From: Novakomyces olei
Taxonomy: Eukaryota; Ascomycota; Novakomycetes; Novakomycetales; Novakomycetaceae
Length of the DNA: 64,000 nt
NCBI GenBank assembly: GCA_016906335.1
Contig: JADEYG010000002.1
Location: forward strand, 817,001-881,000
Direction: 5' to 3'
Below, one piece after another: positions 2,147 to 63,471 of the stretch. Position numbers and translations under genes: made by a program. Numbering within the stretch: the stretch's first letter is position 1; the number at the start of each line of letters is the position of its first letter. The notes under the pieces were generated by a model. It searched no databases, was not told the DNA's origin, and worked only from the letters and a program-made list of their open reading frames with translations.

Positions 2147-2164
2147 TAGGGTTAGTTAGGGTTA
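2147..2164 (-). promoter_or_regulatory. Telomere-like box between hydrolase gene and SEN34
   Basis: The + strand reads TAGGGTTAGTTAGGGTTA, the reverse complement of the TAACCCTAACTAACCCTA core found in other promoters here. It lies about 195 bp from both flanking start codons, so it could serve the divergent pair. Function is inferred from recurrence and from known binding of TTAGGG-type motifs by Tbf1/Tay1-like proteins in yeasts. Confidence 0.6.
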
Positions 2165-2360
2165 TGTATATGGCCATAAGTAATGGCACGTTAGCAATCA
2201 TCTATCGCTGCGCAATATAATATGATAAATTTAAACGAATTATAAAATTGCTTCGTCCAACCAGTGAAAAACAAGTATGGCGGCAAAGGAAGGGCCATGA
2301 GAGAACGCTCATAATGGAGTCAATCAAGTCTGTGTTGCGATATAGAGTTTAGGCTTCCGC

Positions 2361-3564
2361 ATGGATGCAGGTACGTAATCATGTGTGTCTTCAGGCAAGC
2401 AAGACGTGATTATACAATACATTTTTAATCTGTCAATCCGCTGAATCCTTCATAAATTTGATGGGGATGACGACAATAATGTTTTGAGAATGATCTTGCA
2501 AAAAATTGTCTATGCTTGTATGTTTAGTCTGCTTACCGTTTAAAGTTCCGGTGCATTTAATTGCAGGTCGGTACCTCGTCTTTGACGCTAATGGTATTTG
2601 ACTGAAAAAGTTTTATTTATTTTTTTTTGAATTCTTTTTTGGCCAATTATCATGTTGTCTCTCTTTTTTGATCATTTTCATTTTTTGGAATTACTTTTTC
2701 ATCTACACGGCCTGTTCTTCATATCAGGCGCGTTTCAGAGCTAATTGTCCAGCCGTAAAAATTCTGCGTGAAGAATTCCAGATTTTGGGATGCCTTATTG
2801 GCTCATTACCGCAGGCACCTCAGCAAAATATTCTGCTTGGCTTGCCGCTACAATTATCTCGTGATGAGGTACAATGGCTTGTGACTAACGGTAAGAGGAT
2901 TTGAAAAAATTAAAAAATTAAGAATTAAAAATTTAATAAATAGATAAAATGATGTTCAATTTTGCTAACTAAAGACCATGCGTTTATTGTGGACGATACT
3001 GCTGTACTGTGTCGTGCACTCTCTAGCACAAAAATTATAGAGATGCAGGCGCAGCAGGCAGCGAATGAGCAAGCTGCTCGGGCCCAGCACCGTCTAGCAT
3101 TTGCTCGCAAGCAGGCAGCTCTAGTTCAGCGTGGTTTGCCCTTGGCTGCTGTAGATGAGAGCAGTTTGCAGGACCTGCCTTTAATACAGATAGAAGCTCC
3201 GTGGCATTATGAAGCATCTAGACTAGAACGGTCTAATAAGGTTGCAGCAAATCCTTTGATTGACGCTGTCTTTTCACATTTAAAGGCACGTGGATTGTCT
3301 CTGCAACCTGGATTACGATTTGGCGCTGAGTATGTTGCCTACCCGGGAGATCCTCTCCGCTTTCATTCGCATTATTCCGTAGTCACTTGTGGATGGGAAG
3401 ACTCTTTACCGTGTTCTGCCCTTGTGGCCGGTGGCCGTCTTGGTACCACTGTGAAAAAAGCCTGGCTTCTAGCCAGTGTGGTTGAGCAAAACGAGAATGT
3501 GCAGTCTGAGCAAAGGAAGAACGGCCAAGTTCGGTGCTACTGCGTGGAGTGGGCGGGTTTTTAA
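2361..3564 (+). CDS. SEN34: tRNA-splicing endonuclease catalytic subunit SEN34
   Basis: SEN34 is the subunit that cuts the 3' splice site of intron-containing pre-tRNAs. The C-terminal endonuclease fold shows FGAEYVAYPGDPLRFHSHYS and VKKAWLLAS, giving the conserved Tyr, His and Lys of the EndA/Sen34 catalytic triad. The N-terminal part reads GSLPQAPQQN and GLPLQLSRDEV, typical of the family. Splicing is needed: exons 2567-2593, 2753-2890 and 2975-3564 are joined through introns 2594-2752 (acceptor GCTAATTGTCCAG) and 2891-2974 (branch TTGCTAACTAAAG), giving YLVFDANAVKILREEF and TNDHAFIVDD. The first exon is less certain: ATGGATGCAG at 2361 followed by the strong donor GTACGT and an acceptor at 2566 gives MDAGRYLVFDAN. 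An alternative is an uninterrupted start at the ATG at 2514. The middle is Gln/Ala-rich. Confidence 0.85.
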
Positions 3565-3816
3565 ATTAGTCTTGTACATATATGCCGGCGCCTGTCTGAC
3601 AAAATAATACTGGAAAAATGATAAATAATACTGAAAACCAACAGATAAAATGATTCTTCTCTTTATACTTGACTAGTTTATACGATGTAAATCACAGCAT
3701 TCGCGTTAAGCAGACCCTTTTGTACATCATTGATTGATCTCATACATATATTTATTATCTCGCACTTTGTTTTATAATGCTCAATCTCGATCGGGGAAAA
3801 GTAACAGTTGAAGCTC

Positions 3817-7999: not shown

Positions 8000-8001
8000 C
8001 A

Positions 8002-10299: not shown

Positions 10300-13200
10300 A
10301 TGGCTTCCTTCTTCGCAAGGCAACAGCTGGCGCTCTTCGCCTATCTGCTGTTAGCATTCGGTTATGCTCGACCTACGCTTGCGAACGGCTTCACTCCGCC
10401 AAAGGACAATTGCCAATGCAAACCAGAGCCTCTTTGCCCGTACCAACAGTTCTCGAAAGGCGATCCTCAAGGTGCTCCCACAATCATTGCCGCCACATCG
10501 AAGGGGTCTGACTGGAGCATTGATGTCCACATGAAATTGGAAGACTACACCGATTCCAATGCCGACTTGCGTCAATTGAAAATTATCAGCCCAATTAACG
10601 AAGTACTGTATGACTCTCAGAGTCCCGACAATTCCAAGAATTGGCTCGATTTTGACTATGAGTTCACCGCTTTGTCTTCAATGGTTTATCAGCGAGGCGA
10701 TTTGTATTGTGTTGATGTTCAGTTCCAGTATGATTGGCAAGGAAAACACAATTCGTACGATTACCGCACCGGCTGCGACTCTGGAGCAGTGGGTCCCACA
10801 TACTGCTGGAATCCTTCCAAACAGTGTGGGGATTCATCCTCTTCTTTACCACCCACAGTCAGCACAAGTACCAATGTTCCACCCTTGTCTTCAAGTATTT
10901 GGTACGGCAATTCGTCCTCCGTTATTCCAACTACTAGCACAGTCGTGCCGCCGCAGACGACCACGACCTCTTTTGTGCCTCCGCCACAGACGACTACAAC
11001 AATGTCCAGCTCTACTACGAGCCAATTTGTTCCACCAACGCAAACTTGGACTAAACCTGGAGACTGTGCGCCGACTCCTCTTTGCCCAAAGCAGGACTTT
11101 TCCAAGGGAAATCCTCTAGGAGCTCCTAGCTTGACCAGTGCAACTGCTCAAGGCTCAGACTGGCTAGTAGGGGTTCATATGGAGCTCGAGTCAGCTGATT
11201 CAAATGCTGATATCCGTCAATTGAAGATCATTAGCCCAATCAACGAGGTACTGTACGATTCAGCGAGCCCAGACAACTCAAAGAACTGGATCGACTTTGA
11301 CTATGAATTCACAGCGGCAGGATCCTCTGTTTATCCTCGCGGTGATTCTGTCTGTGTTGATGTGCAATTCCAGTACGATTGGCTAAACAACAAGTACAAC
11401 TCGTACGACTACCGAACCGGATGCGACTCTGGAGCAGTTGGACCCACTTTCTGCTGGAATCCTAACAAATGTAACTCGCAATCTTCAGTGCCTCCTGTGC
11501 CTCCGACAACGTCTCAGACGAGCTCTTCTTCGGTAGTGCCACCTGTGAGCACGAGCTCAACAATTAACACTACTTCTTCAGTGCCTCCTGTGCCTCCGAC
11601 CACGTCTAAAATTGAGAGCACGAGCTCAACAATTAACACTACTTCTGTGCCTCCAACGACGTCTAAAATTGTGAGCACGAGCTCAACAAATAAAACTATT
11701 TCTTCAGTGCCTTCAGTGCCTCCAACGACGTCTAAAATTGTGAGCACGAGCTCAACAGTTAACACTACTTCTTCAGTGCCTTCTGTGCCTCCTACCACGT
11801 CCAAAATTGAGAGCACGAGCTCAGCAGTTAACACTACTTCAGTGCCTCCAACGACGTCTAAAATAGTGAGCACGACCTCAGCAGTTAACACTACTTCAGT
11901 GCCTCCAACGACGTCTAAAATAGTGAGCACGACCTCAGCAGTTAACACTACTTCAGTGCCTCCAACGACGTCTAAAATTGAGAGCACGACCTCAGCAGTT
12001 AACACTACTTCAGTGCCTCCAACGACGTCTAAAATTGAGAGCACGACCTCAGCAGTTAACACTACTTCAGTGCCTCCAACGACGTCTAAAATTGTGAGCA
12101 CGACCTCAGCAGTTAACACTACTTCAGTGCCTCCAACGACGTCTAAAATTGTGAGCACGAGCTCAACAGTAAACAATTCTTCTTTAGTACCTCCGAGCAC
12201 AAGTCCAACTGTTCCACCAGTCCAAAGCTCAACAACAACCTGCGACTTGTTCCCGACCACAAGCAAGAGTGAATCATCTGCTACTCCTCCGTTTAGTACC
12301 ACATCCGCGTCAGCTTTCAATACTTCTTCGAGCACAAGTCCAACTGTTCCACCAGCCCAAAGCTCAACAACAACCTGCGACTTGTTCCCGACCACAAGCA
12401 AGAATGGCACTTCGAGCACCATTCCTCCTCCGGAGAGCACTACGACAAAGGGTACATCAAGCACAGTTCCACCAGAAACTACAAGCAAGAATGGCACTTC
12501 AAGTACAGTTCCTCCTCCGGAGAGCACTACGACAAAGACGTCAAGCATAGTTCCTCCTGAGAGCACAACATCAAAGGGTACATCAAGCACAGTTCCACCA
12601 GAAACCACAAGCAAGAATGGCACTTCGAGTACAGTTCCTCCTCCGGAGAGCACTACGACAAAGACGTCAAGCATAGTTCCTCCTGAGAGCACAACATCAA
12701 AGGGTACATCAAGCACAGTTCCACCAGAAACCACAAGCAAGAATGGCACTTCGAGTACAGTTCCTCCTCCGGAGAGCACTACGTCAAAGACGTCAAGCAT
12801 AGTTCCTCCTGAGAGCACAACATCAAAGGGTACATCAAGCACAGTTCCACCAGAAACCACAAGCAAGAATGGCACTTCGAGTACAGTTCCTCCTCCGGAG
12901 AGCACTACGTCAAAGACGTCAAGCATAGTTCCTCCTGAGAGCACAACATCAAAGGGTACATCAAGCACAGTTCCACCAGAAACCACAAGCAAGAATGGTA
13001 CTTCAAGCACAATGCCTCCGGAGAGCACAACTACAACCACCTCAGGCATAGTTCCTCCTCCAGAGAGCACAACTACGACTTCATCAAGCATAGTTCCTCC
13101 TGAGAGCACAACATCAAAGGGTACATCAAGCACGGCTCCTCCAGAAACTACAAGCAAGAATGGTACTTCAAGCACAATGCCTCCGGAGAGCACAACTACA

Positions 13201-15027
13201 ACCACCTCAGGCATAGTTCCTCCTCCAGAAAGCACAACTACAACTAGCTCAAGTATAGTTCCTCCTCCAGAGAGCACTACGACAAAGACGTCAAGCACGG
13301 TTCCTCCGGAGAGCACGACTACAACTACCTCAGGCATAGTTCCTCCTGAGAGTACAACATCAAAGGGAACTTCAAGCACGGCTCCTCCGGAGAGCACAAC
13401 TACAATTGTGCCGCCACCTCAGAGCTATTCTTCCACTCTGAGCACATCTCAGCCAACTTCAAGCAAGAGCGAAACCTCAACTGTATCGACGGCCGAACAA
13501 GCAACATTGGCAAGCTCAAGCACCAGTCAAACGGTTCCGCCAAGCACTCCTCCGGCCGAAAGCACAACAGAGAGCACTGTCAGTAACCCGTCGACTTATG
13601 TACCAAGCCAGACATCATCTACAGGTGAGGAAATACCGACTACTTCACCTCAATCAACTGTGCCAAATCAGTCTTCCAGCGTTGTTACACAAAGCACAAG
13701 TGTCTACACCTACCAGACGACTCCTTCGCAACCGGAAACGACAGTCACCAAGCCTGCTTCAGTTGTGACTTTTGTCTCGACTGTGACTGAAGGATCTACG
13801 GTGTACACGACGATTTGCACTACACCAGTTGAGTCATACTCAGGATCTGCCTCCACTATGACAGTTCCAGCGGCCCAGACTTCACCTGCTCAGACCTCAG
13901 CTGCCCAGACTCCTGGTCAGGAATCTAGCTCGGTTGTTGTCTATGTTTCGACTGTAACTGAAGGATCAACCACATATGTCACAACTTGCACTACACCAGT
14001 TGAGTCATACTCGGGATCTGCTTCCACTATGACAGTTCCAGCGGCCCAGACTTCACCTGCTCAGACCTCAGCTGCCCAGACTCCTGGTCAGGAATCTAGC
14101 TCGGTTGTTGTCTATGTTTCGACTGTAACTGAAGGATCAACCACATATGTCACAACTTGCACTACACCAGTTGAGTCATACTCGGGATCTGCTTCCACTA
14201 TGACAGTCCCAGCTGCCCAGACTTCACCTGCTCAGACCTCAGCTGCCCAGACTCCTGGTCAGGAATCTAGCTCGGTTGTTGTCTATGTTTCGACTGTAAC
14301 TGAAGGATCAACCACATATGTCACAACTTGCACTACACCAGTTGAGTCATACTCAGGATCTGCCTCCACTATGGTCGTTCCAGCGGCCCAGACCTCACCT
14401 ACCCAGACTCCTGGTCAGGAATCTAGCTTGTTTGGCTATGTTTCGACTGTAACTGAAGGTTCAACCACATATGCAACGACTTTCACTACACCAGTTGAGT
14501 CATACTCAGGATCTGCCTCCACTATGGTCGTTCCAGCTGCCCAGACCTCACCTGCTCAGTCTCAAGGCGGAGCGGCTAGCAGTGGAGTTGCAGAATCTGC
14601 AAGTCCAGCAACAGAATATCCTTCAAGCAGCCTTTCTTATACCCTTGAGGCACAAGCGTATACTCCAACTTCATCTGGAGAAACTGGTGCCGCAACTCCA
14701 GAGACTTCCGTTGCTCCGCAGACACCTGGCTCAGAATCTCCAGCAGCAGCAGCAGCAGGAGCACAAACGAGTGCTGCTTCAAATGCTAATACTCCGGTAG
14801 CTTCCGCCACAGGCTCTGCTGGAACGCAAGCCGCGGGCAGTGCCTCTTCACCGTCCGCAGCAACTCTGGCGACTAGCCGTCTCTCTGCATCGGGCTCATC
14901 CACAGGATCAGCCGCAGCCAGCAGCAGCACTACTCTAGGCCAAGCAAGTGCAGGTGCAACTATTTCGGCACCTAATGCCCTGGTTCTCACCATGACAACC
15001 GTTTTTGCTCTCGTATTTGCATTTTAG
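10300..15027 (+). CDS. Large GPI-type cell-wall adhesin/flocculin with tandem repeats
   Basis: This intronless gene encodes 1575 residues. Residues 1-28 form a signal peptide (hydrophobic core ALFAYLLLAFGYA). Two copies of a 130-140-residue Cys- and Trp-containing domain follow at about 36-178 and 255-395. They share LRQLKIISPINEVLYDS, CVDVQFQYDW and YDYRTGCDSGAVGPT. A long Ser/Thr/Pro-rich stalk follows with three repeat families: 19-residue PPTTSKI units, 42-residue TVPPPESTT units and 57-residue VESYSGSAST...VSTVTEGSTTY units. The last resembles TVTEG/TTY repeats of yeast wall proteins. The C-terminus (small residues, then NALVLTMTTVFALVFAF) fits a GPI-anchor signal. The layout of ligand domain, stalk and GPI site indicates a covalently wall-bound mannoprotein for adhesion or flocculation. 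The paired domains could be Flo11-like/Ig-like, but I cannot assign them. A TATTTAAA lies near 10094. Confidence 0.9.
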   Translation: MASFFARQQLALFAYLLLAFGYARPTLANGFTPPKDNCQCKPEPLCPYQQFSKGDPQGAPTIIAATSKGSDWSIDVHMKLEDYTDSNADLRQLKIISPINEVLYDSQSPDNSKNWLDFDYEFTALSSMVYQRGDLYCVDVQFQYDWQGKHNSYDYRTGCDSGAVGPTYCWNPSKQCGDSSSSLPPTVSTSTNVPPLSSSIWYGNSSSVIPTTSTVVPPQTTTTSFVPPPQTTTTMSSSTTSQFVPPTQTWTKPGDCAPTPLCPKQDFSKGNPLGAPSLTSATAQGSDWLVGVHMELESADSNADIRQLKIISPINEVLYDSASPDNSKNWIDFDYEFTAAGSSVYPRGDSVCVDVQFQYDWLNNKYNSYDYRTGCDSGAVGPTFCWNPNKCNSQSSVPPVPPTTSQTSSSSVVPPVSTSSTINTTSSVPPVPPTTSKIESTSSTINTTSVPPTTSKIVSTSSTNKTISSVPSVPPTTSKIVSTSSTVNTTSSVPSVPPTTSKIESTSSAVNTTSVPPTTSKIVSTTSAVNTTSVPPTTSKIVSTTSAVNTTSVPPTTSKIESTTSAVNTTSVPPTTSKIESTTSAVNTTSVPPTTSKIVSTTSAVNTTSVPPTTSKIVSTSSTVNNSSLVPPSTSPTVPPVQSSTTTCDLFPTTSKSESSATPPFSTTSASAFNTSSSTSPTVPPAQSSTTTCDLFPTTSKNGTSSTIPPPESTTTKGTSSTVPPETTSKNGTSSTVPPPESTTTKTSSIVPPESTTSKGTSSTVPPETTSKNGTSSTVPPPESTTTKTSSIVPPESTTSKGTSSTVPPETTSKNGTSSTVPPPESTTSKTSSIVPPESTTSKGTSSTVPPETTSKNGTSSTVPPPESTTSKTSSIVPPESTTSKGTSSTVPPETTSKNGTSSTMPPESTTTTTSGIVPPPESTTTTSSSIVPPESTTSKGTSSTAPPETTSKNGTSSTMPPESTTTTTSGIVPPPESTTTTSSSIVPPPESTTTKTSSTVPPESTTTTTSGIVPPESTTSKGTSSTAPPESTTTIVPPPQSYSSTLSTSQPTSSKSETSTVSTAEQATLASSSTSQTVPPSTPPAESTTESTVSNPSTYVPSQTSSTGEEIPTTSPQSTVPNQSSSVVTQSTSVYTYQTTPSQPETTVTKPASVVTFVSTVTEGSTVYTTICTTPVESYSGSASTMTVPAAQTSPAQTSAAQTPGQESSSVVVYVSTVTEGSTTYVTTCTTPVESYSGSASTMTVPAAQTSPAQTSAAQTPGQESSSVVVYVSTVTEGSTTYVTTCTTPVESYSGSASTMTVPAAQTSPAQTSAAQTPGQESSSVVVYVSTVTEGSTTYVTTCTTPVESYSGSASTMVVPAAQTSPTQTPGQESSLFGYVSTVTEGSTTYATTFTTPVESYSGSASTMVVPAAQTSPAQSQGGAASSGVAESASPATEYPSSSLSYTLEAQAYTPTSSGETGAATPETSVAPQTPGSESPAAAAAGAQTSAASNANTPVASATGSAGTQAAGSASSPSAATLATSRLSASGSSTGSAAASSSTTLGQASAGATISAPNALVLTMTTVFALVFAF
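11490..12180 (+). repeat. Adhesin repeat family A, 57-nt units
   Basis: Tandem units of mostly 57 nt encode PPTTSKIVSTTSAVNTTSV and variants. The central copies are nearly identical at the DNA level; outer copies are more diverged or carry a short SVPSV insert. About ten to eleven copies. Confidence 0.85.
12390..13405 (+). repeat. Adhesin repeat family B, 126-nt units
   Basis: AATGGCACTTC recurs every 126 nt (12490, 12616 and onwards), a 42-residue unit rich in VPPESTTSK and SKNGTSST. Four near-identical copies are followed by rearranged partial ones, the pattern expected from unequal exchange. Confidence 0.85.
13760..14560 (+). repeat. Adhesin repeat family C, 171-nt units
   Basis: GTTGAGTCATACTC recurs at 13828, 13999, 14170, 14341 and 14494, i.e. 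171-nt steps with a final 153-nt step. The encoded 57-residue unit contains VSTVTEGSTTYVTTCTTP, with one or two cysteines in most copies. Confidence 0.9.
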
Positions 15028-15669
15028 ACAAATCACAGAGCTTTGTAATGACTTTCTTGACGCTCTTTTAAGTCCGTTTTATTCATTATTCTTACCCTAT
15101 TTTCTTGAGGCAAAATTTTGGCGGTTTACCGTTTTATTTCTGATTCGGTTTTGGCATGCTTACCCCGACCAGTGAAACTTTCAGTGTAGATATTTTTGAA
15201 AAATTATTCTTCTTTTATACCATATTTGACCGCTATTCGATACACCTTTTGGCAGCTTTAATTGACATTTAAAAGGCATACACCATCTTTGAATTGTAGG
15301 ATGACGCATAGAAACGTAGTCCAGGCGATTAGAGTTTGCGCCCTTACACTCAAGGCGCGTAAGAAAAAGCAGCTTGTTTTCTCGCAAAATTATTGATCTC
15401 GGAGCGCAAAGACTCTAATCATCAGTCTCCCAACCGAGTCCAGAGGTCTTGAAGGGTTTTGGATCTGCGTCTGCGTCATCCGCAAGAATATAAGCACTAT
15501 AAGCACTAGTCGCGTAGTCCAACGCGATAACACAGAAATCCCCATTCCCCAGATTCTATTCTTGAATGAAAACCCTAACTGCTACAAAAAAGAAAACCCT
15601 AACTAACGCTTGACGAAGCCAGTACGTATATTAGGACGGTGAAACAGTTGCTGACTCGGCCAACGAGCA
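15028..15669. other. Intergenic region, adhesin 3' side and CSN5 promoter
   Basis: About 640 bp. No gene is supported. The right end holds two copies of an AACCCTAAC-type box close to the CSN5 start. Confidence 0.6.
15571..15607 (+). promoter_or_regulatory. Telomere-like boxes upstream of CSN5
   Basis: AACCCTAACT at 15571-15580 and AACCCTAACTAAC at 15595-15607, ending 63 bp before the CSN5 start. They are shorter than the full core but in the same orientation as the gene. Confidence 0.5.
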
Positions 15670-19372: not shown

Positions 19373-19382
19373 TAACCCTAAC
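19373..19382 (+). promoter_or_regulatory. Telomere-like box upstream of MSE1
   Basis: TAACCCTAAC, a half-length version of the core, 132 bp before the MSE1 start. Confidence 0.4.
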
Positions 19383-24289: not shown

Positions 24290-25031
<742 letters not shown>

Positions 25032-28400: not shown

Positions 28401-30236
28401 CCTGGCTGATTTGACTGATTCGCCTTTGCCTCCTAACCGCATGAGTATGCTTTTAAGCAGTACAGTGCAGCGTCCTTTTTCCGGGCTGACGGGACCAGTT
28501 CAATTGGAACAGGTTAAACTGTTCCGTCTCCTACTACCCTATACAAAATCCATGTACGGAAGGCACTGGGAGTACATTATTGATGCTTTACTGCACGCGT
28601 TGCAGGGCCCGCCTGCGTTGCAAATAAGTGCTATGAGACTGGCCAGTGGCCTAAACAGTGTGAAGGCCGATAATGACGATTTAGACTTTGCATGGAAAGA
28701 AAACTTTGCAAAACTGCAATCCACCGCCTTGAAAATAGTAACTGCTGATGAATCACGGCTTCCCTTCAAAGTCGCAAAGGATTTTTACGATGCGTTGACT
28801 CTTGTTATTAAACTGGCAAACCCTAAAGCACTGGCAGCTTTAGACCTAACGAACGGGTACCGTACCGTCTGCCACTGTGCGAGCTCTGAGTATAGAGATT
28901 TCGTGTTTGATCTGCTCTCTCGCCGTGTATCAGAGTACTGCCACGACTTGTCGGTCAAGGACGCCCTTACAACCAGCGAAGACGAGACAACCACGGGCGA
29001 ATGTGAGATTTCTCCTTTGCTCATATCGATACTTGTCGACACGCCAAACGAAGCGCACCAGGTCGAGTATGAGAGCTACAACTACCTTTGCTGCTGGAAG
29101 CTTTTACTCTTGCATTTTGCAGATACGTCACTGTCGGTGAAGCATAAATTTATGGAGCAGATCAAGAGCCACGGGCTCGATACTACTTTTTTCGAGCTTG
29201 TCTTTGAAATCTTGCGCGTGGACACAGCTGTCCCAGTCAATGCCTCCAAGTTTAATTTGACTGGATGGGATCACAGTGCGCATACAGACAAGCGTGATAA
29301 GGTAGCGGGTATGGCGGCTCATCTTTTGCTCCTAAGTTTGCTGTACGTTCCCTCATTGCTGCGCTCATACTGGCTAGAGCAACGTAATCGGGCCTATGTG
29401 CGGGCAATCGAAACTTTTATCGACGCTTTTGTGTCGCCAGTGCTTACGGAGAAAGCATTAGCAGACGTTGAGGCAGAGATACCAAAATCTGAGCTCGACA
29501 ACGCTGATATTTCGGTCAAAGTCAACTACATTTCAAAGGAAGTCAGCTGCTATTACGCTGTCGACGAGCAAAACCTGGGCATTTCTATCTGCCTCCCGCT
29601 TGGGTTTCCTCTTCGCAATGTCAGCGTGGAAACGGCGTCTCGCGTAGGGGTCAGTGACCAGCGATGGCGCGCCTGGCTGTTTGCCTCGCAGGCTATAATC
29701 ATGACACAGGTATGCCCTCATTTTTATCGAAAAGCTCTCATTTGAGTTGTTTTTCTTGGCACTTTATAGTCTACTGTGTACAGACTGTGTCTTGTCGCCA
29801 ATCATTACATTTACTTTAAAAAGCTGTTTGTCTCTAAATTTGGTTTGTTTGTACGCTAAATCTTGTCTTTATTTATACTAAATTTTCTGACTCCGAATTC
29901 TACATTTCTCTATTCTGACTATATTCAATGATCGTGAGCTTTACTAACAGTGCAGAACGGATCGATACTGGATGCACTTGTCCTGTTTAAGCGTAATGTC
30001 GCTTTGCACTTTGAAGGTGTTTCAGAGTGTGCAATTTGCTACTCTATTCTTTCCGCCGACCGTGCATTGCCGACAAAGAAATGCGGCACGTGCAAGCACA
30101 AGTTCCATACTTCTTGTCTGTTCAAGGTAACGAAAGCAACTGTTTTTTGAGTGTTTGTCTAACGTGCATTTAGTGGTTTAAATCATCGAATTCAAGTCGC
30201 TGTCCGTTATGTCGCAGCCTTTTTACAGCGTACTAG
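25475..30236 (+). CDS. LTN1: Listerin E3 ubiquitin ligase (ribosome quality control)
   Basis: LTN1/RKR1 ubiquitinates nascent chains stalled on 60S subunits. The gene encodes about 1460 residues. The N-terminal region contains LKALQKKDPTTRAKALEDL, the conserved listerin start, followed by a long alpha-solenoid. The C-terminal RING reads CAICYSIL, CGTCKHKFHTSCLFKW and RCPLCR, completed across introns 29710-29955 and 30127-30173. Other introns are 25477-25516 and 25776-25821 (branch CTACTAACAGCATCAG). No ATG is in frame between an upstream stop and the first conserved residues. However, AT at 25475-25476 followed by GTATGT and joined to G at 25517 creates ATG AGC TCT AAC CCT. The start codon is therefore inferred to be split by a 40-nt intron, giving MSSNPLAAFRRDSP. 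Confidence 0.95.
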
Positions 30237-30565
30237 ACGGTTTTATACAATTAACTCACACGCGTTATTGATAGATAATTTGTATTACTAAAGTTTAGAA
30301 ATCGTTTTATTCGCCGACATCGGTATAAATTATTTGAAAACATTATGCGCCGTACCAATAGTGATAAGTGTAGCAATAACCCTAACTAACCCTAACTATC
30401 TGCGAGCAATGTCTCCTATTAACAGCCAACAGCCGAGCCAGTCGACTGACCAGTAAATAGAATAAAATATTAATTATAATAAGTAAATATAAATAATTAA
30501 TTTTAATTATAGACAAATAATTCAAGTTTAATTGTATGCCCATTCATAAATTGTGGGGATGAATC
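30237..30565. other. Intergenic region, LTN1 3' end and PEX6 promoter
   Basis: 329 bp, AT-rich, containing a full telomere-like box (30377-30398). Nothing else seen. Confidence 0.6.
30377..30398 (+). promoter_or_regulatory. Telomere-like box upstream of PEX6
   Basis: Contains the full core TAACCCTAACTAACCCTA followed by AC, 168 bp before the PEX6 start and in the same orientation. Confidence 0.6.
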
Positions 30566-40294: not shown

Positions 40295-40321
40295 ATAACC
40301 CTAACCAACCCTAGCCCTAGC
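40295..40321 (+). promoter_or_regulatory. Telomere-like box upstream of GDT1
   Basis: ATAACCCTAACCAACCCTAG followed by CCCTAGC, a degenerate, extended version of the core, 356 bp before the GDT1 start. Confidence 0.5.
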
Positions 40322-43922: not shown

Positions 43923-43942
43923 TTAACCCTAACTAACCCTAA
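43923..43942 (+). promoter_or_regulatory. Telomere-like box between TRF4-type gene and CDC37
   Basis: TTAACCCTAACTAACCCTAA, 73 bp from the TRF4-type start and 199 bp from the CDC37 start, in a 290-bp intergenic region. It may act on both genes. Confidence 0.6.
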
Positions 43943-47926: not shown

Positions 47927-50900
47927 ATGACCGTCCAAGTAGACGAGCTTGCAGAGCAATTAAGCCGCGTGTGCGCGGCAGACACGAGCGATGCTTCGCT
48001 AGAAACTGCCCGCAAGTTAGCCGAGCAGATCAAATCTCAGCATCGCGCCGGGTTAGATGCTCTTGTTCGTGGCAAGCCGGACGACATTGCCACCACGCTC
48101 GTAAAAGATATAAAGCACAGATCGTCCGGGTACCACCGCGAAGGTGCTCTGATTGCAGTGTATGCGTTGGCGGATATACTTGATGCTCCCTTTGACTGTG
48201 TGGCACTCAAGTTCCCGTCGCCTACAATCTTCAACGCTGTCCTTGACGCTTTCAATGACAAAGGAGCCGTTGTAAAAGACGCGGCTCGTATGGCGCTTAA
48301 GCGTATAGTGGAGATTTGTTCGCCCTATGCGGCGGGCAGATTTGTTGTCAATGCTCTGCTCTCTTACCTCTCAACCTCGGCCAAGTGGCCGTGCAAAGTA
48401 GCCGCCCTTGACACTCTGGCCACTCTGGCCACGAGTGCTCCGGATCAAATTGCCCGTCGGCTAACGGAGATCATCCCCGTTGTCACCGAGTGTATGCACG
48501 ATACGAAGCAGGAAGTCTCGAGTGCAGCAGTGCGGTCTATGACGGAAGTGTGCCAGGTCATTACGAACTTGGATATTATCCCATTTATCCCACAGCTGGT
48601 CAAGTGTATGGAGGACCCAACTACCGTTGCCGCTGCTATGCGCGGCCTTAGCCATGTGACGTTTGTAGCTGAAGTCAATGCTCCCGTACTGGCAGTTATG
48701 ACGCCTCTGCTTGTACGAGCACTGAATGAGCGCTCGCAACAGGTGCAGCGGCAGACTGCCATTGTCGTGGACAATCTGTGCCGCCTTGTACGCAACCCAG
48801 TAGACGCCAAGGCGTTTTTGGGCGTGCTGGTGCCGGGAGTTCGGCGGCTAAAGGAGACCGCCTCTATGCCAGAGATTAGGGCACTCGCCTCCAGAGCTCT
48901 GCAGACTCTGTACGACGTGGGTGCGGAGAGTGTGGCTGCTACTCCAGCAGAATCAGCAGTGACTACGGCTGATGTGCTGAAGTTTTTACAGCAGCATGTG
49001 GACCTGCAGGGCAGTACAGTCGGCCAGCAGTGTGTACATTACTGCTCTGAAATACTGGCGGATATGGCCACTGTCCTTGACTATTCCGAGCGGGAGTGGA
49101 AGCGTACACTCACTGCCTATGCTCAGCCCTGGGCGGCAACAGCCACTGCAGCCACTGAAGACCTTCCCAGTATTGTCTACCATCATTTCCGGGAAGACTA
49201 CCGTCGTCGCTTTAATATTACGGATGAAGATGAGGAGGAGGATACGGGTGAGAAGGTTGTGGATGTCGATTTCTCTCTCGCTTATGGCGGAATGATGCTC
49301 CTGCACCAAACGAATCTCACCCTGAGACGCGGCCGGCGCTACGGACTGTGTGGGCCCAACGGTGCGGGCAAGTCTACACTCATGAGGGCAATTGCTACTG
49401 GCAAAGTCGAAGGCTTCCCCAGTCTGGACGAGGTCAATTGTGTGTACGTTGAGCATACTCTGCAAGGCGAAGAGGGCGATATGCCAGTAGTGGACTTTGT
49501 CGCCAAGGACTTTGTGGGCCGACAGAGCCGGGAGCGTGTACAGCAAGTGCTTGAGCAGGTGGGCTTTGATACAGAGCGCCAGGCTCAGCATGTAGGCTCT
49601 CTTTCCGGAGGATGGAAGATGAAGCTCGAGCTGGCTCGTGCCATGATTGCCAATGTCGATATCCTGCTACTCGACGAGCCTACTAACCATTTGGACGTTG
49701 CCAATGTTAAATGGCTGCAGGACTATTTGAACTCGCAGTCCCATATCACTAGCGTTATTGTTTCCCACGACTCTGGGTTCCTGGATGCTGTCTGCACCGA
49801 TGTTATTCACTATGAGCGCAAGAAACTCAAGTACTACCGCGGCAATTTGTCAGAGTTTGTCAAGGCTAAACCAGAGGCCAAATCGTACTATACACTGTCG
49901 GCGACAAACACGAAATTCTCCTTCCCCAACCCGGGACTGCTGGCGGGCATCAATTCCTCGTCCAAGGCAATTCTGCGTATGCGCGACGTAACTTTTTCCT
50001 ACCCGGGAGCGGCTAAACCAAGCTTAAGCAATGCTACGTGCATCATTACTTTGGCCTCCCGTGTGGGTATTATTGGGGCCAATGGAGCGGGTAAATCTAC
50101 GCTTGTGAAACTGCTCACTGGCGAATTGATCGCGGACACGGGCAAAGTCGAAAAGCACCCTAATTTGCGTATTGGGTACGTTGCCCAGCACTCTTTACAC
50201 CACGTTGAGCAGCACTTGGACCTGACGCCTAACCAGTACATTCAATGGCGATTTCAGCACGGCGAAGATCGGGAAGTTACGGAGAAGGAGTCGCGTAGAA
50301 TGGCCAGCGACGACTTGGATATTGAGGTTGCCTGTCCGGACGGAACGCGTCGGCGTGTAGAGTTTATTGCTGGCCGGCAAAAGTTGAAAAAGTCGTTCCA
50401 GTATGAAGTGAAATGGCGCGACATGATCCCCAAGTTTAACTCGTGGATCTCTCGTGAACGGCTGAATGAGCTAGGGTTAGCTAAGCTTGTACAAAAGTTT
50501 GATGATTTCGAGGCGAGTCGTGAAGGTTTAGGATTCCGTGAACTGTCACCGCCCGAGATTAGAAGGCATTTAGAGGAAGTTGGATTGGACGGAGACATTG
50601 CGGATAACAACGAGATCCGAGGTCTGTCTGGAGGCCAAAAGGTCAAGGTGGTTATTGCTGCTGCGCTATGGGCAAAGCCCCACCTTTTGGTGTTGGATGA
50701 GCCCAGCAATTACCTCGATCGTGATGCCTTGGGCGGACTGGCCGTGGCTATTCGTGACTGGAACGGTGCAGTAGTGATGATTTCTCACAATGAAGAGTTT
50801 TTAACTGCCCTGTGCCCGGAGAGATGGTACGTTGAAAATGGCCGAATCACTTCCAAAGGCCGTTTTGATTTGTCCACTGGTGCTTTTGAAGACGAGACGC

Positions 50901-51088
50901 ACAAGGACGATGCGGTTGAAAAGTCAGACGGGCAAATTGGCAAAACTCGCAAGTTCCCACGCAAAAAGAAGCTGACAAAGAACCAGCTCAAGGAGCGTGA
51001 TGCCCGCCGACGCCTAAGGCATATTGAATGGCTGTCGTCCGCACCGGGCACACCGCGTCCCGTTGATACGGACGACGAGGAGGAGTAG
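47927..51088 (+). CDS. YEF3: Translation elongation factor 3
   Basis: EF-3 is the fungal ABC-type ATPase that helps release E-site tRNA during elongation. It is intronless, 1053 residues. HEAT repeats fill the first ~320 residues. ABC1 has GPNGAGKSTLMRAI (near 475), SLSGGWKMKLELARAM and LLLDEPTNHLD. ABC2 has GANGAGKSTLVKLL (near 717), GLSGGQKVKVV and LVLDEPSNYLD. A chromodomain-like insertion (FIAGRQKLKKSFQYEVKWRD) interrupts ABC2, as expected for EF-3. The tail is basic (FPRKKKLTKNQLKERDARRR) and ends DTDDEEE. The strong conservation and length (1044 in yeast) leave little doubt. Confidence 0.98.
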   Translation: MTVQVDELAEQLSRVCAADTSDASLETARKLAEQIKSQHRAGLDALVRGKPDDIATTLVKDIKHRSSGYHREGALIAVYALADILDAPFDCVALKFPSPTIFNAVLDAFNDKGAVVKDAARMALKRIVEICSPYAAGRFVVNALLSYLSTSAKWPCKVAALDTLATLATSAPDQIARRLTEIIPVVTECMHDTKQEVSSAAVRSMTEVCQVITNLDIIPFIPQLVKCMEDPTTVAAAMRGLSHVTFVAEVNAPVLAVMTPLLVRALNERSQQVQRQTAIVVDNLCRLVRNPVDAKAFLGVLVPGVRRLKETASMPEIRALASRALQTLYDVGAESVAATPAESAVTTADVLKFLQQHVDLQGSTVGQQCVHYCSEILADMATVLDYSEREWKRTLTAYAQPWAATATAATEDLPSIVYHHFREDYRRRFNITDEDEEEDTGEKVVDVDFSLAYGGMMLLHQTNLTLRRGRRYGLCGPNGAGKSTLMRAIATGKVEGFPSLDEVNCVYVEHTLQGEEGDMPVVDFVAKDFVGRQSRERVQQVLEQVGFDTERQAQHVGSLSGGWKMKLELARAMIANVDILLLDEPTNHLDVANVKWLQDYLNSQSHITSVIVSHDSGFLDAVCTDVIHYERKKLKYYRGNLSEFVKAKPEAKSYYTLSATNTKFSFPNPGLLAGINSSSKAILRMRDVTFSYPGAAKPSLSNATCIITLASRVGIIGANGAGKSTLVKLLTGELIADTGKVEKHPNLRIGYVAQHSLHHVEQHLDLTPNQYIQWRFQHGEDREVTEKESRRMASDDLDIEVACPDGTRRRVEFIAGRQKLKKSFQYEVKWRDMIPKFNSWISRERLNELGLAKLVQKFDDFEASREGLGFRELSPPEIRRHLEEVGLDGDIADNNEIRGLSGGQKVKVVIAAALWAKPHLLVLDEPSNYLDRDALGGLAVAIRDWNGAVVMISHNEEFLTALCPERWYVENGRITSKGRFDLSTGAFEDETHKDDAVEKSDGQIGKTRKFPRKKKLTKNQLKERDARRRLRHIEWLSSAPGTPRPVDTDDEEE

Positions 51089-51859: not shown

Positions 51860-52322
51860 ACTTTATCAAGTCATACAAGATTTGAGAATAGAATGCAATG
51901 AGCAAAAGCAATTTATGCCAATCGGCTTAACGTCACACGCAACAACGAGCCGGCTAATGCATCGCAGGCCGGCACTTGGATTAAGACTTATTAATGAATT
52001 ATCTATACAAATTGCTGAAATATTTTTGTTAAGATGGATTCTGTTTGACTTGCTAGTATTTATTGCAGTTGGCGCTAGGGTTGGTCAGGTAAATTAACCC
52101 TAACTAACCCTAATATTAATTGAAATTTGCTCTGCTATAAGGTGGTCAGGATAACTAACTATATCCCAACAAGAATAACACGAGATACTGAGCAAATCCA
52201 TACTATGGGAATAGAAATAGTGTATATCCGTTGATGCATTACTGTGCTTTCGTTATGAATAATAAAGCATAAACCTTTTGGGCAATAAACTGTGAGGAGC
52301 GTGCAGAGTGCGATTGTGCATA
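51860..52322. other. Divergent promoter region
   Basis: 463 bp between COX23 and the Cys-rich membrane protein gene, with one full telomere-like box and a nearby CTAGGGTTGG. Confidence 0.6.
52094..52113 (+). promoter_or_regulatory. Telomere-like box between COX23 and the Cys-rich gene
   Basis: TTAACCCTAACTAACCCTAA, identical to the box before CDC37, 235 and 210 bp from the flanking starts. Confidence 0.6.
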
Positions 52323-53966: not shown

Positions 53967-54307
53967 TGTCTACACCTTTGGTACTCTCTATAGCCAATAA
54001 ATTCCTCACACTATTTATTACGTTTAGATCTCATATCACACCTGTGCGATACTATACTATGTACATGTCGATCGAAACAGCAAATGTTTTTAAGTTGTTT
54101 GTCCCAACTAACCCTAACCCTGAACAGTTAACCGACATGCATGATAGGTAGCAAAAGCTAGCTAACCCTAACTAACCCTGACCCTAAAACGTTTAATCGA
54201 GCTTATTTTGATTGATAGCTTTGAAATAGCTCTAAAAGGCTGGCTCTGGGCAATAATTTATAGGTCGGCTTTGTGTTAGAAATAGGTTTGGCCATGATAC
54301 ACAACTA
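53967..54307. other. Divergent promoter region of YIP1 and YAF9
   Basis: 341 bp holding two clusters of telomere-like boxes (54107-54121 and 54162-54187). Nothing else seen. Confidence 0.6.
54107..54187 (+). promoter_or_regulatory. Two telomere-like box clusters between YIP1 and YAF9
   Basis: CTAACCCTAACCCTG at 54107-54121 and CTAACCCTAACTAACCCTGA followed by CCCTAA at 54162-54187. The second ends 121 bp before the YAF9 start. Confidence 0.6.
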
Positions 54308-56304: not shown

Positions 56305-56884
56305 ACTGAGCGATTGGTAGAAGCAGACGCTTTTGAGCAGGGCTGCTGTGTCTGTCAGCCGGTGCTCTGTTTGAGATATCAGTATTAGACGCGCATCCAG
56401 ACGCGTTGCTTCTCATATAATTGTTATTTATTTATCAATCAAGCAATAATTTAATTATAACTTTGTTTACAGGCGTGTATAGGGCATAAAAGGATGATGA
56501 GAGGAAATAATAAACTTGAAATTTACGGAAAGACAGCTTGGAGCTTCTCGCTCCGGTAATTATGCCATAACCTAACTAACCCTGTTATCAACAGCAGTAA
56601 ACTTGCTTGACCAATCGAGAGTTAACCCTAACCCTTCTTTGTTTTAATTTTACTTTTTGCAGGATTGTGATAAGCTTTGGTGGTGAATTTCACCTGCATT
56701 CACAAATAAAAACCCGAATCCCACAAATCAAATCAACTAACCCTAACAAGTTGGCATAAAGTATATATCATATTGCAGCATTACATAATATCAGCAGAGA
56801 ATTAGGCACCTCACTATCGGCAATGTCCGACTCCCACGCAGGCAAAGCCAAAAAGGCAATGCTATCCATTGACCAACTATTACC
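56305..56884. other. Divergent promoter region of ASK1 and the SDR gene
   Basis: 580 bp with three telomere-like boxes. Nothing else seen. Confidence 0.6.
56567..56747 (+). promoter_or_regulatory. Three telomere-like boxes between ASK1 and the SDR gene
   Basis: ATAACCTAACTAACCCTG at 56567, TTAACCCTAACCC at 56622 and AACTAACCCTAAC at 56736. This is the densest cluster in the window. Confidence 0.55.
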
Positions 56885-57646: not shown

Positions 57647-58182
57647 CTTTATGTATAGTGAAAGAAAAACAATGATTTAAAGCAGTTGATACAGATTTCC
57701 CAACGTTTATGCCAGTATCTAAACTCTGCAATATCATCGTCTTACAGGTCATGCCGATTCTTAACTGCGCAATGCTGTTGTATTCAAAAATACATTTAAT
57801 TTTCTTTTGTTTCGTAACGTACGGCCGGCCAGCTTATGCGACTTTGCATTTAATCTGGAAAAAATACACGATGTCTGTTACGCAAACACCCGATCACTGG
57901 AGCGATATGCCTTTGAGGAGACGCCTTTTTCGGTGCTTAAAATGTAATTTTGCCCCGACTCCTGAATGTAGGCAGAACGAGAATTAACCCTAAGAAACCC
58001 TGAATTCGGTAATTATGTAAGACAATTTGGCCGTAGATCTGATTACCCGTTATTTTCGCTATCCGAGTAGATTACTTGAGAATTTATTGGAGGTAATCTC
58101 TATGGACTCTGCGCCTGCTAACTAATTACGTATATGACTTCATCTTTGTCATATATAATATGATAAACCACGTGTTGGCTGT
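57647..58182. other. Intergenic region before the flavin-binding gene
   Basis: 536 bp; a telomere-like box lies at 57984-58000. A 38-codon frame from 57870 (MSVTQTPDHWSDMPLRRR) has no recognisable features and is not called. Confidence 0.5.
57984..58000 (+). promoter_or_regulatory. Telomere-like box upstream of the flavin-binding gene
   Basis: TTAACCCTAAGAAACCCTG, a variant with a GAAA spacer, about 183 bp before the start. Confidence 0.45.
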
Positions 58183-59019: not shown

Positions 59020-59713
59020 GGTACAGAGACTGAGTTTGTGTTTTAGAGTGCGATATTATTATATAGTGAGCTGTGACGTGTAAATGGAGACAGGCGTGCA
59101 TGATTACATGTGCATTAAAGTAGACTGCGTTATTACGCCACGATGATAATGCTACAAGATCGAGCAGATTGTTCTACGTTTAATATTGATCCTACAGCCA
59201 AAATTTTTAAGATATCAGGCTATTGTCTAATAGGTACGAATCATCTTGATAAAAATTGTTCTTGATAAACAATGTTCTTGATTAAAATTGTCCCACGATA
59301 CAATAGGAGCGGCACATTTGCAATTTTGGGCCGACAGCGAGTGCAAATGCTGACGAAGCGTTTAAAACAAATCATATAATAAACACAAATCGCGAGCAAA
59401 ATGCTCTCCACAATTTACTAATATAAATATTTGGCCGATAATTAATTATATTCCGCTTACACACCTAATAATACTACTGCATATTATGACAATACTACTA
59501 CATATTGGGAGCTGTGGCCTATGGGATAACCGCTATATTACACCAAGGATTTTCCATACATTATAATAATACTGCGCTTATACTCACACGAAATGCTCCC
59601 GCGCTGTGCGACCAGTGACGGCGATGCTGTTATAAGACGCGCGGCGTGCGCCTTTGCCAGCGCCGCCCTTAGTAAAAAGCTGTCATAGTCTGCGTTTGGC
59701 TTCTGATACGGCC
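59020..59713. other. Intergenic region before LST4
   Basis: 694 bp, AT-rich, with a CTTGAT repeat (59248-59285) and ATAATACTACT repeats near 59466-59505. No telomere-like box seen. Confidence 0.55.
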
Positions 59714-62442
59714 ATGCGTCTTTCGGATAAAGAGGTGCATAGCCTCCTCAATGGAGCAAGGTATATTTATATTTATTGATCGATTAGCCTTTAACGTTGA
59801 CCACGATTTCGCTCCTCTATTCACGAGTTTCGCCTTTGTCTTGTTTGCCTTCCGGACTTTACTGACGTGTGTTACAGGCCAGATCTAGGCTCAGGTTTCG
59901 AGCCAAGCAATATTCGTGTGATTCTCATGGAAGACGTGCTGGACAAGACAAAACAACTTCTTGTCGACAGCTATGCGTGGGACGAGTCCGCGCCGTGTGG
60001 GGTTAATGGACCTAAAGGAACTGCACAAGATGACTTATTATCACGGAGAAAACATTCGGAGCGGAAGCGATTATCGGCAGACGGCGATAGCCCGGAAGCA
60101 GCCTCACGCGCGCGCCTCTTTTCTGGACTACGAAAGGTGGGTTTGTTTCTGGTTTATTACCACTTTTGACTAGCCTTCTCTTGTATTATGTTGATTTAAT
60201 TTGTCTTTAGAAACCTATACAGCATTTTTATGGGGCTTGATTGGTTTTTGATGTCTCGTTTTAGACAACTTGATTTTATTTGTGTGATCTTTTCAGCTCT
60301 AGTACTAATCGTACCAGCACGATCCTATGATTGATGCTATTGCCGAGCTAATGTGGGGCTCAGTGCCCTTATCGCAACGAAACTCGTCCATGAAAATTCA
60401 CGTTTTGCCTAATAGCCTGGCGGCTACGGTACGCCATTCGTCGTCTCCTACGGCCGATACAACTCAGCATCCTGTATTTCTTATAACACGCCGATTTCAT
60501 GTACACCCAAATGAAATGCGTTTTGAGCAAGATCAGCCAGAGTCGCCGGGCTGGCGCAGCCTTTTCGAAGCAAACCGAGGCCAAGCGTATCTGGACTCGA
60601 AATCATCAAAAAGTGTCGACTCACCAACAACTACACTTGATGGCAACGAGTTCCCTTTTCCCCGTATGCGCCTGCAGTCTTTTGCTTCTGCTGCTGTTAA
60701 ACCGGAAATAACTATTGCAGAAGATGTTACAGAGCAGAACAAACAGTCAGTCGAGATGCAGCCACAGGCATCTTTGGAGGCACGAGAGAACGGAGTCACT
60801 GACTGGCTGCCGATGGCCTTGGATACGCCTCACCTCTGCTTGCCCGATGACGACAGCAAGAGGTTTGGGAACATTTATTTGTCGCGAACATCACGACGAC
60901 GATCGCTCTCATTTGCCCTGGGAATTATTATCAGATCGCCTCACAAGAACCATCAAGCATTCTTTCAAGACATTGGGCACATTCTGGCCGATAATTGCAG
61001 ATTTTTACAAATATTTATGGAGAAACGTATTCTCAGCCTGGTCTCTAATTTCCCAGAGCTGAACGGGGCAAAGGCCGGTGGAAGCCAGATGGATTCTGGT
61101 AAATCGTCCCATATGTTCAGGAGCTCTTTGCACCTGGACGGGATTGACGCAGACATGTCTGTACGTAATGCTGTCAACGAGTCAATCCGGCAAATTGTGG
61201 GTGCTTTTTATGCGCCTCCGCTTAAGCCGCTGTGTACAGGCTCAACAGAATTAAAAGAATGGCAGGCTGAATTTAGGCGTGCGATTACTGCTTATGATAA
61301 CAAGGAATATAAATTGTACGTTTAGAACTGTGTTTCCTCCCTCCTTTTTTGCTTGTTCCATTTCCGTTTCTTTTCTTTATAATGGTGAACGATTTATCGA
61401 TACTAATTCCAACAGTATAATCTCTACAATTTTAACTCAAATCCTTAGAGCCGTTTGTGGATTTCAACTCGTACTTACCGGGCCGGACGCCAACCTTAAT
61501 CAACGGCTGGCATTTATTTTAGGAATGTTTTTCTGTATTAATTCTGCGCCCATTGATTCTATTCAGCCATCGGAAGGTATTCTTGTTTCGCGTATAACCC
61601 GGAAGCTTCGTACTTCGGCACCTGCTTCACATCACAGCAGATACAGTAGTGGTTGGGATATTCCTAGATCTGCATCAGAGCGCAGAGCTAACTCTCGCTT
61701 TTCATCGCATCAAAGCCCGTCGCTTGACAGTGGAGGGGATAATGTACCTGAGCCATCAAATTCATGGTCCAGCTCTCTCCGATTGGGCCATTGGATGTCG
61801 TCTTTGAGAAGCTTGACGTTTGGATCAGAGTATCCGAAATCACAAGGAAGTGCACTAGTTTCTTCTGCGGCTTCTGAGGATGAGGCTATGGACGAAGCCC
61901 CGCTTGAAATGGAAATTGGATCCAAATTTGATGAAGAGACTGGACTCATAAAAGTCGATTGCGTGGGGAGAAAGACCGACAATAAAAGATTTAACGAATG
62001 CCCACAGCAATCGCAGTTGTCGCAAACTTCTTTCAAGACTGCCGTTTCAAAAGTCGCAAGGTACAATCCAGGGTTTTCGTTTCAGACTGTACCTTTTTAT
62101 GATGCTCTTGAAAGCGATATTGTAAAATCGCTCAAAGAAGCTCACATGTATCACAAACTTGAGGAAGATGATGAAGATAAAGTCGCATCACGCGTTATTT
62201 TGGCCAATTTACAGGACTCTTTTCTCGTTAAAGAATTCTCTCTAGACCACGTTCCGCATTCCGCGGGTCCAACTACGTTTCGAGTTTCCGATGTTTTGGT
62301 CACTGAGGATATTATTGATGATATTGACGATGCCTTAGTTAACCGGTTGAAGAATGCAGTGTATTCTTCAGATTGGGAATATATTTTCAGGTTGCGCAAT
62401 GAATTCGCGTTAATGGCTATAAAAGCCTACTTGTCAATATAA
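59714..62442 (+). CDS. LST4: LST4/folliculin-interacting-protein-like DENN protein
   Basis: Lst4 pairs with Lst7 as a GTPase-activating complex for Gtr/Rag GTPases in TORC1 amino-acid signalling at the vacuole. Exons are 59714-59760, 59878-60136, 60318-61315 and 61416-62442, 776 residues. The N-terminal block FEPSNIRVILMEDVLDKTKQ leads to HDPMIDAIAELMWGSVPLSQ, matching FNIP_N. SLSFALGIIIRSPHKNHQAF and FRRAITAYDNKEYKFIISTI, with LTQILRAVCGFQLVLTGPD, lie in the DENN region. A Ser-rich linker and a C-terminal block with FQTVPFYDALESDIVKSLKE end the protein. The introns end in TACTAATCGTACCAG and TACTAATTCCAACAG. The family call rests on pattern similarity and is less certain than most here. Confidence 0.8.
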
Positions 62443-63471
62443 TATACAGGCTCCTGTGTTTTTTGTGTTTTTTGCAAGGGTCATTGAATAATAAAATACT
62501 TTTTATCAATATTAAACCTAGCACCTTTCCATTTATTATTCATTTTTTATTTTCTATTTTTTATTTATTTATTTGTCTATTTTGTGTATCACTTCAAACT
62601 AGATTTTTGATTTGTCTTTGCTTTTTAATCTATTTCAGCGTAATAGCATCTACATACGGCAATAGTTGTGGAATTTATAATAAACGTTTAATTTTCTACA
62701 CTTTTGTATACGCTCCATCGGTTTAGTGTTCACAGCATTATATTGATCGTATCGCGCCTGTCTCATGTCCGACAAGTGCGATGACAAAAGGCAAGCAACC
62801 TGCACAAAAAGATAGCTCGTAGTAGTTTTTTTGTTGTAAACTAAGTTGTTTGCTCCCTCCGTGTCTTTGTAGCTTTTCGGTTCTGTACCTGTTTTGAAAA
62901 AATACTGTAGCCCTGCATTGTGCAAAACTATCCTAGCGTTTTAATGAATTTATAGAGCAACGGAATAAGAGCCCATTCTGCTTTTGCAACAGTATGAAAA
63001 CGAAAGAACAGGGATTTTACCTTTTTAAAGGTATTAAGCCACTATGCTGCAAGTGAACTACTCCAAAATATATTTCGTCGTATTAAGGCACTACTTGGCT
63101 ATATTTCAAACAGATTAGAAAAAAAAAAGTTAAAAATCCCTCTTTGAGCTTGTGGAAGATCGCCCACATGAAATATGGTACAGGAACAGAAAAACAGGTC
63201 AAGCATAGTGGGTTGTAATGTCAATAGGACGACGCTCTTTTACTCAACACTGTTCGATTCAAGAGGCAATTAACCCTAACTAACCCTCCATATACTGTAT
63301 CTCCTGAGCATGGTTAATAGTTGATATAATTAATATTCCTACAGCAAGATTGGTAAATAAATAACAAAACACATTTATCGTCGCAGTTTCATTGCCCAAC
63401 GGTAAAAGACCCACCAGCGATAACAGCATCAGCGGTGCCCATGCTTATCGTGAAAGCAAGAGACAGGTAGC
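62443..63471. other. Intergenic region before HDA1
   Basis: About 1.03 kb, AT-rich with ATTTATT runs after LST4 and a telomere-like box near the right end. No gene seen. Confidence 0.6.
63269..63288 (+). promoter_or_regulatory. Telomere-like box upstream of HDA1
   Basis: TTAACCCTAACTAACCCTCC, 184 bp before the HDA1 start and in the same orientation. Confidence 0.6.

Follow-up and report, generated by a model that had tools for sequence, protein, structure and literature searches.

Our analysis of a 64,000-nucleotide stretch of the genome of the ascomycete Novakomyces olei (the window; C2:817001-881000 in a genome of 14.34 Mb and 15 contigs, labelled C1 onwards) reveals a telomere-like element that recurs before genes of the window. 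In particular, a copy of at least the core word AACCCTAA is present in each of the 11 promoter regions for which an earlier note on this DNA had named the element, confirming its recurrence, and the repeat unit that the element implies is the unit of the host telomere. The functional unit is likely a head-to-tail pair of AACCCT half-sites with a pitch of 6 or 10 bp, not telomere sequence as such. Judging from sequence, the element is probably bound at promoters by a telobox-Myb regulator; this would most likely be the Tbf1 orthologue of this genome, acting alone or with a second telobox protein encoded on C9. Since the telomere unit recurs before many genes, chromosome ends and promoters may share one DNA-binding protein.

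Element copies and the host telomere

A strict copy is here an exact match to the 15-mer TAACCCTAACTAACC, and the core is AACCCTAA; the shorter words AACCCTA and AACCCT were also counted. The 18-bp element TAACCCTAACTAACCCTA occurs exactly at 2147 (minus strand), 30377, 43924 and 52095 of the window, and its first 15 bases also occur at 54163 and 63271. Flanking bases extend all six strict window copies to the 17-mer TAACCCTAACTAACCCT, bearing out the statement of the earlier note that at least five copies have 17-18 bases in common. The core occurs 18 times in the window, as compared with 1.70 ± 1.32 times in 100 dinucleotide shuffles (largest value, 6), with 17 of the 18 copies on the plus strand, and the 15-mer with up to two mismatches matches at 10 places, as compared with 0.05 expected. 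By region, copies start at 2147; 15571 and 15595; 19374; 30377; 40296; 43924; 52095; 54109 and 54163; 56623 and 56738; 57985; and 63271. Full-length copies are absent from reading frames, as had been claimed: none of the six strict copies lies within an open reading frame (ORF) of at least 100 aa, and only one of the 18 core copies is coding. Two shorter cores do fall inside genes, AACCCTAA at 28819 in an LTN1-like gene and TAACCCTA at 50472 (minus strand) in the gene called YEF3. The 22 AACCCTA sites of the window include none before the YEF3-labelled, calmodulin, eIF2-alpha, epimerase, adhesin or YPT7 genes, all of which had been listed as lacking the element.

The contig-end arrays consist of TAACCCTAAC, i.e. 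GGGTTAGTTA (ends of C1-C5 and C7 among the matches listed, with the C2 end read directly). The 10-mer implied by the element, GGGTTAGTTA, is therefore the host's own telomere repeat. A minor unit within the same arrays, GGGTTAGTCA, is the Yarrowia lipolytica unit. In the array at the C1 telomere (C1:6-168), GGGTTAGTTA units are interspersed with GGGTTAGTCA units and a few slipped ones, so that telomerase copying looks slightly uneven.

Genome-wide counts, which include telomeric units, show a strong excess of the motif over reversed words: 243 matches for the 15-mer, as compared with 0 for its reversed control, and 1232 for AACCCTAAC, as compared with 138 for the reversed word. On C1 and C2, 46 of the 82 15-mer matches listed are internal. 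The window holds 6 of the 22 distinct internal strict places on C2, making it richer than the rest of its chromosome; strict sites on C1 show no clustering. A segment of approximately 137 kb that spans the window (C2:795000-932068) holds 13 of the 22 places on C2, exceeding all 20,000 random placements.

Half-site pairs and placement before gene starts

The pattern AACCCTN{0,30}AACCCT matches 1369 places genome-wide, as compared with 146 for a control. A pitch spectrum was obtained from 100 of these pairs, all on the C1 forward strand, 15 of them at the C1 telomere and 85 internal. Among the pairs listed, the internal ones are head-to-tail and fall into two pitch classes, one of 6 bp (32 pairs) and one of 10 bp (24 pairs), with at most four pairs at any other pitch. 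The spacer of the 24 ten-bp pairs is AACT in 11, AATT in 3, AAAT, ACCT, ATCT and AGCT in 2 each, and AATC and AACA in 1 each, i.e. altered in 13 of 24. The window itself contains the 6-bp class at 54110 and 56624. In a survey of 178 kb (the window plus C2:86-200k) for near-copies that deviate at one or two bases, 7 of the 11 mismatches fell within the 4-bp spacer; for seven control words, the survey gave no near-copy. The register of the element is not free: in a comparison of two of the ten 15-mer phases on C1 and C2, internal and telomeric matches stand at 46:36 for the 15-mer within the 17-bp element and at 14:32 for the other phase (Fisher p = 0.006). The fixed pitch of 6 or 10 bp, together with the changed spacers, points to a binding-site grammar rather than to pasted telomere.

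Inverted pairs are far less frequent than direct ones. TTAGGGN{0,30}CCCTAA matches 23 places, as compared with 6 for a control, a mild excess far under that of direct pairs, the two counts resting on slightly different hexamers; none of the 23 places has the 6-base gap of the Candida-type palindrome TTAGGGN6CCCTAA. The opposite inverted arrangement was counted in the same 178 kb, where AACCCT pairs at 6-36 bp are inverted in 2 cases and direct in 11 in the window, and inverted in none and direct in 20 in C2:86-200k.

For placement relative to genes, we used intron-aware starts from a crude codon model that was written after a null result with first-ATG starts, and we dropped three C1 loci consisting of block repeats (L023, L024 and L029) from the C1 counts. 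Of the 13 non-coding AACCCTAA clusters in the window, 9 are found 60-300 bp ahead of a start, as compared with 24% of non-coding bases (p = 7e-4), a count that becomes 10 of 13 when the COX23 start is added by hand; coding sequence, which fills 56% of the window, holds 1 of 14 clusters. The reversed hexamer shows no start bias there (4 of 12). With first-ATG starts, 11 of the 22 window AACCCTA sites are found 100-300 bp upstream of a start; the same band after a stop contains no site. On C1, 9 of 19 strict site groups lie 60-300 bp before a start, as compared with 25% (p = 0.028), and none of the 19 is coding, as compared with 54% in the control. Among paired sites in C2:86-200k, 4 of 6 non-coding ones lie in the 60-300 bp band (p = 0.03) and 2 of 8 are coding. 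The promoter bias is firm in the window and moderate elsewhere. Promoter enrichment, as expected from the earlier note, holds in the window, is weaker in the pooled non-window sets (13 of 25 sites, as compared with 24.5% expected; p = 0.003) and is lost with the cruder first-ATG calls on C1. Because the window copies lie 17:1 on the plus strand, whereas matches in C1 tandem spacers are oriented against the genes in 8 of 9 cases, we claim no orientation rule.

Candidate readers and alternative explanations

The genome contains one gene with a TRF domain (PF08558), at C3:1165173-1165862 within a 729-codon frame (208 bits, E = 7e-61; 205 bits when the search was repeated on the protein). Its C-terminal telobox Myb, QIQLKDKARNLK, has matches to S. 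pombe Trf1 (E = 7.6e-31) and to S. cerevisiae TBF1 (E = 4.5e-22), identifying the gene as the Tbf1 orthologue. The second telobox protein, on C9, carries at its end a Myb with SQVDLKDKARNMK that matches the TBF1 Myb weakly (E = 1.5e-4); a search of this protein for a TRF domain found none. A TTAGGG cluster at C9:826732-826765, approximately 560 bp upstream of the first ATG visible in the frame of this protein, hints at feedback. A Tay1-type telobox gene was not found genome-wide with two sequence patterns, by which an intron-split gene would be missed: the LKDKWR-type pattern has no match, and a broader pattern has two, neither in a frame of at least 50 codons that reads the motif. The Rap1 DNA-binding family also had no match, a result that is uninformative because its control likewise matched nowhere.

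The sequence of the element, its excess, its pair grammar and its position are direct observations; from them, we infer binding by Tbf1, an effect on expression and a factor shared with telomeres. Specifically, the recognised unit would be two head-to-tail AACCCT(A) half-sites, either 10 bp apart, which is one turn of the helix (spacer mostly ANNT), or at a distance of 6 bp. The half-sites, positioned on one face of the helix or adjoining each other, respectively, would bind two telobox Mybs, supplied by a Tbf1 dimer or by a two-Myb protein. From its usual position 60-300 bp before starts, the bound protein may work as a general regulatory factor, keeping the promoter open. A single type of Myb that reads telomeres and promoters alike would, we propose, account for the identity of the 10-bp form with the telomere unit. 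For the broader claim that a telomere-repeat-binding factor regulates many genes, identity with the telomere unit, the genome-wide excess, the placement before gene starts in the window and the presence of a Tbf1 orthologue speak in favour, and the weaker bias outside the window tempers it.

Comparison with published systems reveals partial likenesses. The S. cerevisiae Tbf1 consensus is ARCCCTA (PMC10985990); S. cerevisiae Tbf1 sites are clustered TTAGGG words with no rule of spacing or orientation, and C. albicans Tbf1 recognises the palindrome TTAGGGN6CCCTAA at ribosomal protein genes (PMC2834713). The element resembles both in its ARCCCTA core and in the presence of a Tbf1 orthologue, and it resembles the S. 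cerevisiae sites in lying beside a broad set of genes. It differs from the S. cerevisiae sites in that direct pairs peak at 6 and 10 bp, and from the C. albicans site in being a direct repeat at these pitches. A head-to-tail grammar of this kind would be a third architecture for Tbf1-type sites. The history of Tbf1 and Tay1 has been treated in PMC7952879. Plant telo boxes, short interstitial telomere motifs in gene 5′ regions (PMC3022908), are alike in sequence type and in location 5′ of genes, but have plant-type units and belong to another lineage. In the literature surveyed, represented mostly by titles and the opening lines of abstracts, we found no report of a promoter set matching a GGGTTAGTTA telomere.

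Several observations weigh against a Tbf1-bound promoter site. The known Tbf1 grammars differ from the one seen here, and a fixed direct repeat could better fit a two-Myb protein of the Tay1/Teb1 type. With first-ATG calls, 21 C1 sites divide into 11 upstream, 9 downstream and 1 neither, as compared with 58% upstream in the control. In C2:86-200k, 5 of 15 AACCCTAA clusters and 14 of 36 AACCCTA sites are coding, and 4 of 10 non-coding clusters are promoter-placed (p = 0.2). Block repeats make up 3 of 20 C1 loci, one of them with a copy in a called frame. Two strict copies in the repeat-rich part of C2:1-200 kb stand outside all position tests, one in a 107-aa ORF that is not coding by the codon model and the other 36 bp after a stop.

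The most serious alternative concerns the reader. S. pombe Teb1 is found at histone promoters and needs two TTAGGG repeats (AGGGTTAGGGTT), a word that is rare in S. pombe telomeres (PMC4839565). Its histone box, with a 6-bp pitch, resembles the present element as a promoter pair of head-to-tail telomere-type half-sites, the 6-bp class being the commonest among the C1 pairs listed (32 of the 85 internal ones), and two Mybs in one chain fit fixed-pitch pairs. Y. lipolytica Tay1 (YlTay1), whose affinity is comparable for most of the TT-NNNN-AGGG telomere variants (PMC6746865), offers a second parallel, and Tay1 is suspected of being a transcription factor too (PMC4839565): Yarrowia-clade telomeres bound by Tay1 (TTNNNNAGGG) have a 10-bp unit in which TT and AGGG are conserved and the spacer varies, and the promoter pairs here are equally tolerant. 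Both the variant tolerance of YlTay1 and the repeat requirement of Teb1 would suit a two-Myb reader. The parallels are incomplete, however: the element has an additional 10-bp class equal to the host telomere unit, the Yarrowia-clade sequences are reported at chromosome ends, and no Tay1 or Teb1 orthologue of LKDKWR type was recovered with the two patterns, which an intron-split or divergent Tay1 would escape. The Myb proteins that were read, a part of the Myb matches, resemble the SNT1, SWI3, BDP1, REB1, CEF1 and BAS1 types. We regard a tandem-Myb protein of this type, in place of Tbf1, as a rather unlikely reader.

It is less likely still that the element is a chromatin boundary or transcription roadblock between neighbouring genes and not an activator of the downstream gene. 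Several C1 sites follow a stop codon at a distance of 49-323 bp and strict sites cluster on C2 as described above, both of which would fit such a role, but C1 lacks clustering, and convergent spacers, a setting that suits no role but that of a terminator, account for 1 of 24 C1 strict matches, beside a tRNA gene (7 of the 24 have an uncalled neighbour). Quite improbable is an origin as interstitial telomeric sequence left by telomerase at healed breaks and kept only where harmless, hence between genes: identity with the telomere unit, an avoidance of coding sequence that selection against insertions could produce and the fact that most altered spacers are one change away from AACT would all be compatible with it, but the register is not free, the top internal pitch among the pairs listed is 6 bp whereas the telomere arrays seen repeat every 10 bp, spacers vary but half-sites are retained, and copies are placed before gene starts.

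It is conceivable, and we suggest it tentatively, that one pool of telobox factor serves chromosome ends and hundreds of promoters. Among the C1 AACCCT pairs listed, 85 are internal and 15 telomeric; with internal sites in the majority, promoters would determine which half-site telomerase has to write and leave the spacer free. A shared pool would explain why Yarrowia-clade telomere units change mostly in the spacer, a kind of change that the promoter copies here tolerate as well. Under such a scheme, transcription would be titrated by the length of telomeres, with the TTAGGG cluster upstream of the second telobox gene providing feedback. In S. cerevisiae and C. albicans, the promoter motif of Tbf1 has diverged from the telomere repeat; here the two are still one word, which makes it testable whether transcription-factor sites constrain telomere sequence evolution and whether telomere length can titrate a promoter factor.

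Window sites and neighbouring genes

Positions of the element, its paired forms and single words in the window, with their gene context.
Feature	Position	Strand	Context
18-bp element	2147..2164	-	228 bp before start of 520-1932 (-) gene; divergent with SEN34
Two single AACCCTAAC copies	15571..15603	+	~245 bp upstream of CSN5
Single TAACCCTAAC	19373..19382	+	Between DnaJ and Glu-tRNA synthetase genes; 583 bp from a start
18-bp element	30377..30396	+	198 bp upstream of PEX6
TAACCCTAACCAACCCTA, 10-bp pitch, altered spacer	40296..40313	+	598 bp upstream of GDT1
18-bp element	43924..43942	+	84 bp upstream of TRF4-type gene; divergent with CDC37
18-bp element	52095..52113	+	~245 bp before COX23-like start (51859, - strand)
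Extra AACCCTA	52076	-	Near 52095 element, COX23-like upstream region
6-bp-pitch pair TAACCCTAACCCT	54109..54121	+	YIP1/YAF9 divergent promoter; 148 bp from a start
17-bp element	54163..54179	+	YIP1/YAF9 divergent promoter; 140 bp from a start
Degenerate 10-bp-pitch pair TAACCTAACTAACCCT	56568..56583	+	ASK1/SDR divergent promoter
6-bp-pitch pair TAACCCTAACCCT	56623..56635	+	ASK1/SDR region; 257 bp from a start
Single TAACCCTAAC	56738..56747	+	142 bp upstream of SDR gene
10-bp-pitch pair, spacer AAGA	57985..58001	+	367 bp upstream of pyridoxamine-oxidase-like gene
17-bp element	63271..63287	+	196 bp before start of gene labelled HDA1 in the earlier note

Most gene names given previously hold. 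Pfam matches support the tRNA-splicing endonuclease (SEN34), CSN5 (JAB), DnaJ, Glu-tRNA synthetase, PEX6, GDT1, the TRF4-type polymerase, CDC37, YAF9 (YEATS), ASK1, the SDR and the pyridoxamine-oxidase-like flavin gene, and the COX23 assignment rests on a CX9C reading frame. YIP1 is marginally below the cut-off (27.8 of 28.6 bits), the "hydrolase" at 520-1932 has no confirming family match in the Pfam scan, and HDA1, outside that scan, is an unconfirmed label of the earlier note. The YEF3 label (47927-51088) gives way to NEW1, the closest of the solved proteins (E = 1.2e-290, as compared with 5.3e-226 for elongation factor 3A).

Neighbours of the C1 strict sites, at varying distances, look like a broad housekeeping set. 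Twenty frames were scanned, four of them without a match; the others include a DnaJ protein, a cullin-binding protein, an RNase PH-type subunit, a DEAD-box helicase, a WDR75-type WD protein, a WDR55-like WD protein (below the cut-off), a VPS27-type protein, a Zn-dehydrogenase, an SDR, an FMN dehydrogenase and an RNA polymerase large subunit.

Start-proximal introns begin with GTGAGT or GTAAG and have CTAAC ahead of the 3′ AG. Taken with the Flo11 and DASH genes and the telomere unit, these introns would fit a Yarrowia-like yeast. The motif holds CTAAC, a likely branch word, and was considered as an intron branch point; [CT]AG follows within 18 bases in 3 of 14 copies, as compared with 30 of 87 other CTAAC words of the window, so that motif copies are not richer in splice acceptors. 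For the copies with a nearby [CT]AG, at 40297, 54110 and 2155, a branch-point role is conceivable.

Rfam, in a scan that did not extend to L015-L020, gave no matches in the window or in C2:1-140 kb, and one tRNA-Pro in the 20 C1 loci; a tRNA scan of the window likewise gave no genes. At locus L036, a strict copy at 1533 lies approximately 230 bp before the tRNA-Pro gene (1766-1836), in an otherwise convergent spacer. At L035, a strict copy at 1553 (C1:1294552) has no convincing gene within 1.5 kb on either side and is a possible spot for the telomerase RNA template.

Among the matches listed, C2 at approximately 15-85 kb (L002-L009) and the three dropped C1 loci contain recurring blocks of approximately 60-470 bp in changing order, mostly 70-98% identical, one of which starts next to a telomere-type motif. 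The window also contains a Flo11-domain adhesin-like gene (10300-15027) of 1575 codons, with internal repeats at approximately 11544-13405 and 13773-14563.

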